Source: a virus
Strand: one strand, 5' to 3'
DNA length: 23,562 nucleotides
Virus record (IMG/VR): IMGVR_UViG_3300030331_001954
Coordinates: 1-23,562 of that record
How positions within the stretch are numbered: the first letter of the stretch is position 1; each line of letters starts with the position of its first letter. This document shows, piece after piece, positions 1 through 13,401 of this stretch. Both the position numbers and the translations under genes were made by a program. The notes beneath the pieces are model-generated. The model searched no databases. It had not been told where the DNA came from and saw only the letters and a program-made list of their open reading frames with translations.

Positions 1-268
1 CTAAATCTTCTTTGACTTTCGCTTGTAAATCAGAAGCAAGAGAAGCTAAAACACCATCTTCCATAACCTCTGCAAGATTAGCATTATGGTCATACTGCTC
101 TGCCATAACTTCCATTTGTTCGCCAGTGTCGAGCTCTATACCCTCTGGTAATGTTTCACCAACATCATCTAATTCAACTTGTAAACTATCGGCTTCTGGT
201 TCAACTGTTCCACCAGCTCCCACACTTTTATCCACCATTGGTGCTATTTGCATTGGTTCTCTTGCCAT
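1..268 (-). CDS. Probable portal protein, N-terminal part (runs off the window)
   Basis: Eighty-nine codons are visible, starting MAREPMQIAP and ending at the window edge with LASDLQAKVKEDL. The N-terminus is acidic and probably disordered. The last visible stretch resembles the start of portal proteins in marine tailed phages, where a helix of this kind precedes an SR-x-W segment; that is a recollection of the family, not a database match. The start codon overlaps the TAA of the upstream 1318-residue gene as TAATG, with AAAGG about ten bases upstream, so translation is probably coupled. Its position downstream of terL in the packaging operon fits a portal, but the diagnostic region lies outside the window. 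Confidence 0.55.
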   Translation of the reverse strand, partial: MAREPMQIAPMVDKSVGAGGTVEPEADSLQVELDDVGETLPEGIELDTGEQMEVMAEQYDHNANLAEVMEDGVLASLASDLQAKVKEDL

Positions 269-3200
269 TAACTTACCTTTCTAAATTTACTTAGTATACC
301 ACCTTTTGCCATTCTTGGTATCTTTAAATCTGCTTTCTTACTCGCCTCATCTACTGTTAAGTCTACTATTCTATGGAGGTCTTCGTCAAACGCATTTGCT
401 CTTGTTTGTTTTTTTCCTATTCGTGCTATACCTTGTTGTTGTCGTTGCCCGAGAAGAGGAGTCCCCAGAGCGGTAGTAACTGGTTTCTTTTTAGCAATAA
501 CCTCTACTTGTGTTGTATATCCTTTTCCATATTTCTTCAAAGCTTTTGTCAAAGGTCTGCCAATCGAAAAGTCATAAGCTGTTTTGTTTTCTGCATCACC
601 ATACTGTATTCTTTTTACGCCTGATCCAAGATATTGTCTCTGAGACATGTCATCGTAAGCGTCCATAGATGGGAAATGCACTCTTTCAAAACCCATGTCT
701 TTTGCTTTTTTTATAACATTATGCACCATAAGTTCTGTCATTTGTCCGTATTCTAATACTGGAGGGCCTGCAAGAAATTTCTCTAAGTTATTGTTGTCTC
801 CAAATTTTTGATGCTTGATAATTTCATCTAAAGATTTTTTTAAGTTTTCTGGTAGTTTATCCCTTAAGTTATCTAATATTTTATCTAAGTCTCTTTTTTT
901 ATTAAACTCTTCTAGTTGAACAAAAGAATCTTGTTGAAGAGCTTGTGCCTCTAGTATTTGATTCTCTAAATATTTTTTATCTTTATTAAACTGAGTCAGT
1001 CCTTTTTTAGCAATCGCAGATTCTAGAAAAGTTAAATCTGTTTGAAAATTCTTTTCTATAAAATCAATATAAGATTGACTTATGTGAGCATCTTTATACG
1101 ATTCTTTTCCTAAGACTTTATCAAAATTGTCTTTGCTAAAAGCACCTTTTGACTTTCGTCCCAATAAATTAGTAAGAACAGAAGGTCTTTTAAACCCCTC
1201 TCGAACAAGTTGTGTGTAAGTTCCACCACCAATCATAGGTATCTTTTTTTCCGTTTTTCTAAACTCATCATAAACTTCACTTGCTGCTTTTTTAAATGCT
1301 TTGCCAATCGCACCCTTATGTACGAGAGGAAAGTCCTTTCCAGTGCCTTCGAAGTCTGTCGTTTGAACTCCAAAATCATTTCTTAAATCATCTTTTATTT
1401 TGTTTACCTCTGCATAGTAACTAGCGCTGTCTTGTGGAATACCTTGTTCTGCATTTAATTTTTGTTGTTTGTTTAAGGCTTCGTATCTGTCTCTTAACTC
1501 CTCTATATTGTTGGACTCTAAAAGTTTTGTTATTTCTGGATCATTCATCACTTTGTTAAAAATCAAAGAGTTCGCATAGCCTGCTTCTATTTTTCTCTCT
1601 CTGTCATTAACTAAATGAGTTATTGTGGCGTTAACATTATCTTTATCTAGAAAATAATCTGGATCTACTTTTCTTTTTATATCTATATAATCTTTATAAG
1701 TAGGTCTTTTTTGAGCGTATAATTTATAAGTTCCTTCATCAATCAAATCATTATCGAATAATTCTCCTATGTCTTCATAATGTTCTCTCATCATACCAAT
1801 ATCACTCATATAAACAACTCTCGGTGGATTAGGTCCCTTTACATGAGGAAAGGTACTTAAATCAAAATCATAATTTAAATCATTGTCTTTAAGAGCAAAA
1901 ACATCTTGAAGTATATCTGTGTTACCTTCTGTGCCATATCTTGTTTTAGCAACTTGTTTTAAAACTTTTAATGATTCTGGGTTTTCTGGATTAGCAAGAT
2001 TTATCGGACTTCTAGGTCTTGTTTGACCACCTTCATCTAAAATTACGGCTATATCAAAAGAGTCAAAACCTCTACCATCTGCTAAATGATCACCATAATT
2101 ATCGTGATTTCTAAAAAACAAAGAAGCCAAAATATTTGGCATGTTTTCCTCTCGATCAATTCCAGCTAGAGTCCCATCTGGCAGAGCAGGAGATGGGATT
2201 TCTGAAGCTACTTCTAGATCCTCAATAATTTTTGCTTTTGCTTTTCTAAAATCAGATAAAAGAATACGATCACGATTAAGAGACTCATCTGTTTTAAACA
2301 AAGCTCTTTTTAAACCACCCACGCCATCATTTAGTTTACCAAATTCTTTTTCTAGAGTTTCCATTTTTATGGTTTTTTTATCGTAGTCTTTTTGTAATAT
2401 AGCTTTTTCTTCTGCAAATTTAATAAAACCAGTCCCTAGTTTTCTGTCCTCTTCTACAATCTTTAAGGCATCCATTCTTGTTCTATTTGTTAGAACTTTC
2501 GGAGTTCCGACAGCATTACTTTCTTCGATCTTCTTTTTTAGTCTATTGTACTTTGAAGTTTCTACATCATTTAAGTTTGTGATGTTTGCCTCTAATCTTT
2601 TAAATTCAGCCATTAATTTAGCATCTTCAGCGTTTACTCTTTTTTCTTTTTTGCCTGCTTGGTTTGACTGTATTTCATTGATAGAAAGTGTTTTATACTC
2701 TTTGCCTGTTGCTGGATCTATTGTAATCATCGCAGTTCCTCTTACATGACCATAATAGTTTGGTATGGCATATCCATGATTATTACCCAGTCCTAATTTT
2801 CTTAAAGATGTTGTCTCACCCATCGCTTTGAAATAGTCATCAATTTCATTTATTTTTCTATCAATTTCATTTGTACTTGCCTTATCAACTGACTTTCCCA
2901 TAAAAGTTTCAAAGCCTTTGTCCCCAGAAAATAAAAAAGTAACATTGTCTGTGCGAACTAGACTTTGATTATTTGAATTTAATGTGCCTGCTGTTTGAGG
3001 ATTTTGTACGGATCCTAAATCTTGAACTTTTAACATCTGTATTCCGTCATGTGTCCAAGGGTTGTGAGCACTGTAATCATCTAATTTTTTTCGTAAAATT
3101 TTTATTGAGTCAACTATTTGTGCTCTTCTAGGATCATTTTCTGATAAATTTAATCCAGTGTTTCCTAAACTTTTTATCTGTCCTTCAAGAGAGGCTTCCT

Positions 3201-4224
3201 CATTCTTTGAATACACAGACATTTTAATATTTGGTTTAAACAAACTAGCTGCATTGATAAGTTCTTCTTTAGTAATAACTTTGTCTGGATTGTTTTCTAG
3301 ATAACGAATCAAACCAGTTTCTACTGCTTCTTTGCCTAATCTACTTTGTAAGCCACTACCACCACTATCTTTTAAACCCATACCACCAAATTTTTTAGAA
3401 AATTCTGGCTTAAGATCATTTGTAAAATACCCTAATAGTTCTCTGCCCGTTGGCTTTTGTTTAAAGTCAATACCTCTTACTAAAGTTGGACCTGGTTCTT
3501 TTACAACTTTACCAGTCGCATCTTTTACTATTTGTCCGTTGACTCTTTTAGGAATCATCCTTGGTTCTAGGATACTTAGCCTAGAAGAAGTCTTACCTAT
3601 CTTTTCTAACTCGTTTAATAAATTAGAAAAAATAGTTCTATCTAGATTTAAACCAGCCTCTACATCTACATCAAAACCCTCTTCAAAAAACTTTTCATCA
3701 TCTTGTCTTATCTTCTTAGCTTGTCCACCCTCACCAGATTGTGTCATAAAGAGACGTTCACCCACAGTTTCTGGAACTTCTTCAACAACATCTACCTTTG
3801 CACCATCACCTACTGTTGCTAGAGCATAGCCTGCATTGTTGTTTGAAGGTGGGAACATATTTCTACCTCTTGCAGCTAATCTCGCTGCTGCAATACCTTT
3901 TGCTAATAAAGCTCCAGGTGCCACGGCTCTCCCAAAACTTTCCAAGTTCATACCAAACTCTGGAAACTCCTCACCCATGAATCTTTTTGCAAGTGCTTCA
4001 GAACCTATAGTATCAATTAAACTTTGTATTCCCTCTGGTGTTTCACCATACCTAAGATCATAGTACAAGCCAAGTAGGTCTGCGGGCAAACCCAAAAGGT
4101 CTGCCGTTTCACCGACCAGTAACCCTTTTCCGATACGTTTTAAATCATTAACAGTTTCATCAAGTGTTTGTGGTGTAGCACCAGGCCCAGTCAAATTAAA
4201 TCTGTAATTTGGTCTTTGTGCCAT
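268..4224 (-). CDS. 1318-residue multidomain phage protein, polyvalent-protein-like
   Basis: This is the largest gene in the window. An apolar helix rich in LLGLPADLLGLY lies near residues 35-60, followed by a low-complexity linker. Around residues 505-520 is SINEIQSN, preceded by a GHVRG segment. This resembles the EIQSD core of 'large polyvalent protein' domains found in phages and conjugative elements. Residues about 525-680 and 1080-1150 are charged helical, probably coiled coil. Residues about 1160-1195 (ELMVHNVIKKAKDMGFERV) resemble the second half of the same domain. The C-terminus is basic and carries MAKGGILSKF. The gene lies between terL and the probable portal with TAATG junctions at both ends. 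A virion or ejected protein is an inference; no enzymatic activity is shown. Confidence 0.8.
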   Translation of the reverse strand: MAQRPNYRFNLTGPGATPQTLDETVNDLKRIGKGLLVGETADLLGLPADLLGLYYDLRYGETPEGIQSLIDTIGSEALAKRFMGEEFPEFGMNLESFGRAVAPGALLAKGIAAARLAARGRNMFPPSNNNAGYALATVGDGAKVDVVEEVPETVGERLFMTQSGEGGQAKKIRQDDEKFFEEGFDVDVEAGLNLDRTIFSNLLNELEKIGKTSSRLSILEPRMIPKRVNGQIVKDATGKVVKEPGPTLVRGIDFKQKPTGRELLGYFTNDLKPEFSKKFGGMGLKDSGGSGLQSRLGKEAVETGLIRYLENNPDKVITKEELINAASLFKPNIKMSVYSKNEEASLEGQIKSLGNTGLNLSENDPRRAQIVDSIKILRKKLDDYSAHNPWTHDGIQMLKVQDLGSVQNPQTAGTLNSNNQSLVRTDNVTFLFSGDKGFETFMGKSVDKASTNEIDRKINEIDDYFKAMGETTSLRKLGLGNNHGYAIPNYYGHVRGTAMITIDPATGKEYKTLSINEIQSNQAGKKEKRVNAEDAKLMAEFKRLEANITNLNDVETSKYNRLKKKIEESNAVGTPKVLTNRTRMDALKIVEEDRKLGTGFIKFAEEKAILQKDYDKKTIKMETLEKEFGKLNDGVGGLKRALFKTDESLNRDRILLSDFRKAKAKIIEDLEVASEIPSPALPDGTLAGIDREENMPNILASLFFRNHDNYGDHLADGRGFDSFDIAVILDEGGQTRPRSPINLANPENPESLKVLKQVAKTRYGTEGNTDILQDVFALKDNDLNYDFDLSTFPHVKGPNPPRVVYMSDIGMMREHYEDIGELFDNDLIDEGTYKLYAQKRPTYKDYIDIKRKVDPDYFLDKDNVNATITHLVNDRERKIEAGYANSLIFNKVMNDPEITKLLESNNIEELRDRYEALNKQQKLNAEQGIPQDSASYYAEVNKIKDDLRNDFGVQTTDFEGTGKDFPLVHKGAIGKAFKKAASEVYDEFRKTEKKIPMIGGGTYTQLVREGFKRPSVLTNLLGRKSKGAFSKDNFDKVLGKESYKDAHISQSYIDFIEKNFQTDLTFLESAIAKKGLTQFNKDKKYLENQILEAQALQQDSFVQLEEFNKKRDLDKILDNLRDKLPENLKKSLDEIIKHQKFGDNNNLEKFLAGPPVLEYGQMTELMVHNVIKKAKDMGFERVHFPSMDAYDDMSQRQYLGSGVKRIQYGDAENKTAYDFSIGRPLTKALKKYGKGYTTQVEVIAKKKPVTTALGTPLLGQRQQQGIARIGKKQTRANAFDEDLHRIVDLTVDEASKKADLKIPRMAKGGILSKFRKVS

Positions 4225-12011: not shown

Positions 12012-12085
12012 GAGGGTATGTCCGAGAGGTTAGGAGATGGTCTGCAAAACCATTTACGAGGGTTCAAATCCCTCTACCCTCTCCA
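12012..12085 (+). tRNA. tRNA-Cys (anticodon GCA), CCA encoded
   Basis: A full cloverleaf is present. The acceptor is GAGGGTA/TACCCTC. The anticodon arm is ATGGT-CTGCAAA-ACCAT with GCA at 12044-12046. The T arm is GAGGG-TTCAAAT-CCCTC. The discriminator T and encoded CCA follow at 12082-12085. U73 together with a GCA anticodon is typical of bacterial tRNA-Cys. The D stem is short, about three pairs. It sits between two protein genes in the same operon and has no promoter of its own. Confidence 0.96.
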
Positions 12086-12101: not shown

Positions 12102-12314
12102 ATGAAAGTTAATTTAATAGAATTGGCATTAGAAGAGCAGATTAAAGAATATAAAATTATAGAAAAATTTAAAGATGGTGTAGTAGATGGATTGATACAT
12201 GGCAAGAGAGATGATACTCAATCCCATCACTATTACAATTTAGGCTATGACTTTGGAATAGCTTTGTATAATGATCAAATAGATGAAGAGGTAAAAGATG
12301 CTCAAACATCTTGA
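12102..12314 (+). CDS. Small GLIHGK-family protein, copy 2, 70 residues
   Basis: After AGGAGTAAAAA the product MKVNLIELALEEQ contains FKDGVVDGLIHGK and GYDFGIAL, aligning gap-free over 33 residues with the 59-residue protein encoded at 11430. The conserved Gly, His, Lys and aromatic positions suggest a small fold rather than chance. It overlaps the methyltransferase start by 17 bases. The function is unknown. Confidence 0.65.
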   Translation: MKVNLIELALEEQIKEYKIIEKFKDGVVDGLIHGKRDDTQSHHYYNLGYDFGIALYNDQIDEEVKDAQTS

Positions 12315-13401
12315 TTTATGTAGTGGTATTGGTGGCTTTGCCGTAGGTTTTTCTATGGCAAAGTTATCAGAGCCTATCGCTTTTTGCGACACAGACAAGT
12401 TTTGTCAGAAAGTTCTTGCCAAAAACTTTCCAGGTATTCCAATCTATGATGATGTAAAGGAGATCGCAGATGACCCAACAAGATTTATTTCAGAACGACC
12501 AGATATCCTCACAGGTGGATATCCATGTCAAGCCTTCAGTACAAGTGGCAAAAGGCTCGGCACGGAAGACCCTAGATACATCTTTCCGTACTTGCATAAA
12601 ATTATTGAACAAGTCAGACCCACTTATTGTGTTTTCGAAAATGTTTATGGACACATCTCATTGGGACTTGACGAGGTACTCTTTGCAATGGAAAGCCTCA
12701 ACTACCATACGAGGACATTTGTACTTCCGTCTAGTGCAATCGGAGCAAGACACAAACGAGAAAGATTATGGATCATCTGTAGAAACTTGGGCGACCCCCA
12801 CGACTATGGATTCCCTACCACCGAGAAGTGCAGAGGCAACGAAAAAGATGCAAGAGGGACACAGAAAAGGTCGCAAGAGACCGAGCAATCTGAGGGAGCA
12901 AGTCGATCCGAAGACAATGGAGATGTATCCGACACCGACAACAAAAGGTTTCGGTCATGCCTCGGAGGGTCAGACAATGATGTTCAGAAGGAAAGTGGAG
13001 AACGGAGAACTGACGGAAGCAGAAGCTCAAGCCATGATGAACGGAGTGACTTTGAGACCACCGAGAATGGAAGAGTGGAATTATCCAACACCAACATCAA
13101 GTCTAAAGAAGCACAGTTACAACGGCAACAAGGACTTTTGGGAGAACCGAGTGGACAAAGGAAGACAGATGGACTTGGGAATGAAGATGTACCAAACGGA
13201 AGGAGACGGAAGGTTGAACTGCGATTGGACAGAGTGGTTGATGGGGTATCCTATTGGATGGACGAACCTAGAGGAGTCCCAAGAATAATTGTTGATCAAA
13301 AAGATAGAGCAAATAGATTGAAAGCATTGGGTAATGCTATCGTACCACAGAATGCAAAGTTAATTGGATTAGCAATAAAAAAAGAACTAGGCTTGACTTG
13401 A
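12298..13401 (+). CDS. dcm: DNA (cytosine-5) methyltransferase
   Basis: This enzyme transfers a methyl group from S-adenosylmethionine to cytosine C5 in DNA. Motif I is DLCSGIGGFAVGF (residues 6-18), motif IV GGYPCQAFS has catalytic Cys77, motif VI has ENV at 114-116, motif VIII is ARHKRERLW (150-158), and motif X is LKALGNAIVPQ (341-351). Residues about 163-300, where the target recognition region should lie, are unusually rich in Arg, Glu, Asp, Ser, Gly and Asn. The same DNA encodes a second family-like sequence in the +1 frame. The phage may use it to protect its DNA from host restriction. The ATG lies inside the end of the upstream gene, after GAGG. Confidence 0.93.
   Translation: MLKHLDLCSGIGGFAVGFSMAKLSEPIAFCDTDKFCQKVLAKNFPGIPIYDDVKEIADDPTRFISERPDILTGGYPCQAFSTSGKRLGTEDPRYIFPYLHKIIEQVRPTYCVFENVYGHISLGLDEVLFAMESLNYHTRTFVLPSSAIGARHKRERLWIICRNLGDPHDYGFPTTEKCRGNEKDARGTQKRSQETEQSEGASRSEDNGDVSDTDNKRFRSCLGGSDNDVQKESGERRTDGSRSSSHDERSDFETTENGRVELSNTNIKSKEAQLQRQQGLLGEPSGQRKTDGLGNEDVPNGRRRKVELRLDRVVDGVSYWMDEPRGVPRIIVDQKDRANRLKALGNAIVPQNAKLIGLAIKKELGLT
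12470..13288 (+). other. Overlapping +1 frame inside the methyltransferase (PTPT/EWLMG frame)
   Basis: A 272-codon open frame lies entirely inside the methyltransferase gene. Its first hundred codons overlap motifs IV-VIII and look like a shadow. From 12788 on it reads WATPTT, then YPTPTTKG, YPTPTSSL and DWTEWLMGYPIGWT near its end. These are hallmarks I associate with the C-terminal part of many phage cytosine methyltransferases. No convincing internal Shine-Dalgarno is seen, so expression would need a +1 shift near RERLWII or internal initiation. It may instead be an old frame relic. Confidence 0.4.

Follow-up and report, generated by a model that had tools for sequence, protein, structure and literature searches.

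Two overlapping reading frames in a marine phage cytosine methyltransferase gene and the two-subunit enzyme they may encode

In a piece of marine phage DNA, one and the same stretch can be read in two overlapping frames as two proteins. The first frame is recognisable as a C5-cytosine DNA methyltransferase, and the locus raises the question of whether the second frame is also a gene and what its product would contribute. The window, which is the whole stretch analysed, comprises 23,562 nucleotides (23.6 kb) of an IMG/VR virus record and carries terminase, primase and helicase genes, which mark it as a tailed phage. Upstream of the methyltransferase lies a tRNA-Cys (GCA) gene (window 12012-12085), followed by a 70-aa ORF (window 12102-12314) that overlaps the start of the methyltransferase gene by 17 nt. 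Elsewhere in the window, a minus-strand ORF of 1318 aa (268-4224) was found to be without a PHROG match.

The methyltransferase frame and the reading frame inside it

The first frame, here called alpha, spans 12298-13401 on the plus strand and encodes 367 aa. It was assigned to the C5-cytosine DNA methyltransferases by its profile matches to PF00145 (E=2.2e-36) and phrog_363 (E=2.1e-60) and by the catalytic motifs I, IV (PCQ, 12523), VI (ENV, 12637), VIII (RHKRER, 12748-12765) and X, all of which contain residues that are invariant in an alignment of 46 sequences (alignment A5). Motif X (RLKALGNAIVPQ and the following helix, 13315-13377) includes the invariant R337, G345 and N346. The N-domain has the fold of M.HhaI, and M.HhaI and M.HaeIII were the closest solved structures in a Foldseek search. 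AlphaFold2 modelled residues 1-175 mostly with high confidence and the helices of motif X confidently, and between them predicted a disordered linker (residues 176-335, 12823-13302; pLDDT about 36-62) without helix or long strand. The preliminary description had regarded this frame as a complete methyltransferase with motifs I to X, but motif IX was not found in the alpha frame of the window; a block resembling it lies in the other frame.

This other frame, beta, lies at +1 relative to alpha and forms an ORF of 272 aa (12470-13288, plus strand). It had earlier been placed at 12788-13288, of which the end was correct, whereas the start has to be moved to the ATG at 12470, so that alpha motifs IV-VIII (12523-12765) are also overlapped. 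A protein match had been asked for this frame and was obtained with phrog_1008 (E=1.8e-21, over residues 11-267), a family labelled DNA methyltransferase. Beta is thus a member by profile, but the family entry is silent on members sitting out of frame within another methyltransferase gene. No credible match was obtained in Pfam, NCBIfam, PADLOC or PDB, the profile search of the PDB revealing no solved relative, and the predicted structure of beta alone was poor (pLDDT 58), too poor for a structure search.

An out-of-frame gene in a phage methylase is not without precedent. In the ShiLan case, an HNH endonuclease gene lies out of frame in phage methylase genes and is mobile with a patchy distribution (PMC11855218). 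Beta resembles it in being a second gene out of frame within a phage DNA methylase, but differs in that profile searches gave no HNH match and that it is a constant part of its loci. An HNH insertion of this kind was therefore rejected as an explanation.

Coding constraint and the start of beta

Parts of the N-terminal half of beta lie opposite the catalytic motifs of alpha, so that its conservation is partly shared, and the ORF might be a by-product of the codon usage or composition of alpha and no gene. Freely interrupted +1 frames in homologues would agree with such an origin. The frame was open, however, in all 152 related loci, each of which contains both frames with beta always at alpha+1. 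All but one of these sequences are IMG/VR loci or the window, and 80 of the loci were listed through alpha alone, i.e. not chosen for beta.

Codon-position variability, computed on 25 non-redundant sequences, differs along the gene. In DNA that codes for alpha only, the third alpha position is the most variable, both upstream of beta (0.176/0.091/0.389 for alpha positions 1/2/3) and past it (0.232/0.137/0.462). In the first part of the overlap (12470-12778), all three positions are constrained (0.174/0.090/0.222). In 12779-13285, it is alpha position 1 that varies most (0.346/0.106/0.083), and this base falls on the third position of beta codons. This wobble switch was seen in 123 codons against 17 (p=1.6e-19, a descriptive value, as the compared sequences share ancestry), and after the stop of beta the fast-evolving position returns to alpha position 3. 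The switch into beta and back after its stop argues that beta is a protein under strong selection, and a change at both of its borders would be hard to explain otherwise.

Further comparisons agree. In synonymous shuffles that keep the alpha protein and its codon usage, 7.4 stops were expected in the beta frame of the window and none is present; given beta, 11.0 were expected in the alpha frame, again with none seen. The longest open stretch in the +1 frame was measured in 29 classical C5 methyltransferases, with a median of 60 codons and a maximum of 144, so that these single-chain enzymes are without a comparably long +1 ORF, as against a median of 305 and a minimum of 183 codons in 146 members with the beta layout, which were picked for having the +1 ORF. 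Beta is also more conserved than alpha among homologues, e.g. 80% vs 65% in locus L040. An origin of the ORF as a by-product is therefore extremely improbable, and the earlier proposal of overprinting and a second protein is supported. The low-confidence stretch of alpha, residues 176-335, coincides approximately with the beta-dominated DNA and, judged from its variable base at alpha position 1, appears to evolve mainly under the constraint of beta.

Beta has a start signal of its own. A Shine-Dalgarno (SD) sequence, AAGGAG (12457-12462, plus strand), lies 7 nt before the ATG at 12470 and overlaps an in-frame TAA (12455-12457), which shuts the beta frame upstream of its start. In 26 marine sequences including the window, the SD sequence and its spacing are identical and the start is ATG or GTG; most of them have a stop within a few codons upstream. 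The SD core was found ahead of 66% of assigned beta starts vs 10% of internal ATG/GTG codons in 146 diverse pairs, and in beta, SD and start are kept although synonymous changes there are open to alpha. Nearly all of alpha is overlapped in L155 and L165, a phage of Acinetobacter and one of Salmonella, where beta starts 4 nt past the start of alpha. Taken together, the SD sequence, the upstream stop and the starts in these two phages favour internal initiation and disfavour frameshifting.

A programmed +1 shift had been put forward earlier as a way to two C-termini. Ribosomes would start in alpha and shift past motif VIII into the frame with the PTP repeats, thereby making an alternative C-terminus. 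The strongest constraint on beta does start just past alpha motif VIII, and a shift at this point would put the halves together in the same order as in a single chain. However, the first half of beta is also constrained, yet would serve nothing, the start and its SD, both conserved and closely preceded by a stop, would be left without a role in this scheme, and motif X would require a second shift back. The downstream frame of a +1 frameshift gene has no start of its own, whereas beta has SD and ATG/GTG. Frameshifting is thus considered very unlikely, and beta is read as an independently initiated gene.

Motif partition and the proposed enzyme

The block in beta that resembles motif IX (LNCDWTEWLMGYPIGWT, 13214-13264, plus strand) has the nearly invariant columns L249, G259 and P261. 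The end of beta, LNxxWxEWLMGYPxGW, aligns in register with motif IX of the classical enzymes (LTPREAARLQGFP). The match between the beta block and classical motif IX in hhalign was short and weak (P=0.0012 in a single comparison, with a probability of only 19%), so that the argument for motif IX in beta is carried by position and context. A strict motif-IX pattern was found in 227/406 beta ORFs vs 2/406 alpha ORFs.

Loci with other arrangements add to this context. In L248, L249 and L298, alpha stops directly past motif VIII and the beta ORF continues through motif X, an arrangement that points to beta as the C-terminal half of the enzyme; this layout is possibly an intermediate or a sister of the nested one. 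In Gordonia phage Gudmit (L164, 1284-2669), the alpha frame contains PTP repeats, a IX-like block and motif X, while a match to the first part of phrog_1008 persists in the other frame; this represents a frame swap midway in the recognition region. A further variant was observed in Brenneria alni (L246), where alpha stops early and the beta ORF enters motif X of alpha without a motif IX. This looks like an indel that swapped the frames, possibly in a decayed gene.

Beta might also be a separate protein that overprints alpha by chance and has a role outside the methyltransferase, such as regulation or anti-restriction, since no database gives it a tested function and no relative has been solved. 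Against this stand the motif-IX-like block, which is absent from alpha, the in-frame fusion of beta with motif X in L248, L249 and L298, and the joint occurrence of the two genes. Alpha and beta were found together in 406/408 loci; in 400 of these beta lies at +1 and overlaps alpha for the most part or completely, in 6 the overlap is partial with the same +1 relation, and 2 loci had no detectable alpha; most of these loci were fetched by beta, and the figures describe layout, not prevalence. An unrelated protein is therefore unlikely.

The reading preferred here, which is held with good though not full confidence, is a two-subunit C5-cytosine DNA methyltransferase made from two overlapping genes, with alpha as catalytic subunit and beta as the subunit for target recognition and motif IX. 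Alpha would provide SAM binding and catalysis with motifs I-VIII, followed by the long disordered linker and motif X. Translation of beta would begin independently, at an SD and start codon that lie within the alpha gene in the +1 frame. Beta would supply the target-recognition region (TRD) and motif IX and take the position that these have in single-chain enzymes, M.HhaI for example. We infer that both chains are produced and join into one enzyme; the complex would methylate the phage DNA and most plausibly protect it against host restriction.

Two-part enzymes of this type have been described. M.EcoHK31I is a two-polypeptide C5 methyltransferase with the target YGGCCR, whose small subunit is encoded within the gene of the large one but in a different frame; both subunits are needed in vitro. 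Its motifs I-VIII and X lie in the large subunit and motif IX in the small one, and its predicted TRD was placed in the large subunit (PMC3404938). The window likewise has motifs I-VIII and X in alpha and, by the weak profile match and context, motif IX in beta, and the small chain lies in another frame within the large gene, at alpha+1 in 152/152 loci. It differs with regard to the TRD, for which selection and predicted disorder point to beta. By its motif layout, set against the published description, the window fits the M.EcoHK31I kind.

A different split is known from M.AquI, a two-subunit C5 methyltransferase with the target CYCGRG that is divided between motifs VIII and IX. L248, L249 and L298 are similar in being split past motif VIII, with the proposed TRD region, IX and X in beta, whereas the window has motif X in alpha and beta nested inside it, and thus was not assigned to the M.AquI type. 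In single-chain C5 methyltransferases such as M.HhaI and M.HaeIII, TRD and motif IX belong to one chain; alpha shares their fold in its N-domain.

The long conserved overlap on the same strand, which sets the catalytic core against the proposed recognition half of one enzyme, is an unusually clean case for the study of dual coding. If the proposed enzyme is real, alpha cloned by itself would lack half of it. Any mutation that disrupts alpha within the overlap would affect both genes. For orphan methyltransferases of this type, the assigned specificities may have to be rechecked.

Mirrored repeats, occurrence and annotation

The most conspicuous feature of beta are PTP repeats (12788-13099, plus strand), namely WATPTT at 12788, YPTPTT at 12926 and YPTPTS at 13082. 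As had been described, each of these strings occurs and corresponds base by base to a string of the alpha frame, which reads GDPHD opposite ATPTT (about 12790), SDTDN opposite YPTPTT and LSNTN opposite YPTPTS; at about 13235, the same bases read RVVDGVSYWMDEP in alpha and EWLMGYPIGWTNL in beta. It had been suggested that one group of methyltransferases shows as (A/S)D-TD repeats what another shows as PTPT repeats, the DNA being the same and the frame different. The presence of both frames across loci supports this, and mirror patterns were found at 138 sites in 146 loci. A W-P-T-P-T in beta becomes xTG-GCC-nAC-nCC-nAC in alpha, i.e. (L/V/M)-A-(D/N/H/Y)-(A/T/S/P)-(D/N/H/Y), and this prediction matches the observed VADTDN, LAHANG, VADADG and similar. 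The RVADGVPNR-type block of alpha sits opposite WLMGYPIGW of beta. From these patterns, both the ADTD-type and the RVADGVPNR-type blocks of alpha are largely by-products of beta, with ADTD as the code-forced mirror of the PTP repeats. If beta carries the whole target-recognition half, such blocks in annotated alphas would be mirrors of the PTP repeats and motif IX of beta and not functional alpha motifs. A null simulation of the mirror patterns gave high z-scores, in which shared ancestry was left in, and was not relied on.

Whether alpha is selected for the D of ADTD was considered, but this found no support. Ahead of AC, the base n corresponds to the third position of proline codons in beta, and the G that gives D is not enriched there (43% before T vs 49% elsewhere). 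In T codons that precede P, C is avoided as third base (7% vs 26%), which spares proline in alpha, and codon context may contribute. This avoidance suggests that the linker of alpha is not wholly free, and in this stretch alpha may offer more than a passive linker.

Beta in the +1 frame was found in phage or plasmid records of Paenibacillus, Lacticaseibacillus, Acinetobacter, Salmonella, Pseudomonas, Burkholderia, Klebsiella, Xanthomonas, Erwinia and Bacteroides and in a cyanophage. Among the genomes in which it was found, Pseudomonadota predominate; some belong to Desulfovibrio, and one record is titled Acidobacteria. In 249 genomes drawn from the phylum to which a Pseudomonas genome belongs, that genome being one of them, phrog_1008 was detected at E<=1e-8 in 11, and all loci taken from these 11 have it in the +1 frame inside alpha. 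PF00145 was found in 131 of the same 249 genomes, so that most C5 methyltransferases are of other types. A literature search among open-licence papers returned no description of a widespread family of such layout. The M.EcoHK31I layout may be no oddity but stand for a class of phage and prophage methyltransferases that is large, old and for the most part without annotation, in which an independently initiated beta forms the whole target-recognition half; this broader proposal is favoured with some reserve.

The layout is common to hundreds of phage and prophage loci, often with only one of the two proteins annotated. In Paenibacillus phages, both frames match the same DNA, 208 nt apart, and both are annotated. 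In the three E. coli prophages examined (L459, L460 and L461), beta is unannotated, and in one of them (L460, NZ_CP041110.1, 552-1763) alpha is open throughout but annotated as two 'incomplete' pseudogene pieces. The reverse was observed in Pseudomonas phage PMG1 (L156, 1371-2204), where beta is the annotated gene and the alpha frame is unannotated.
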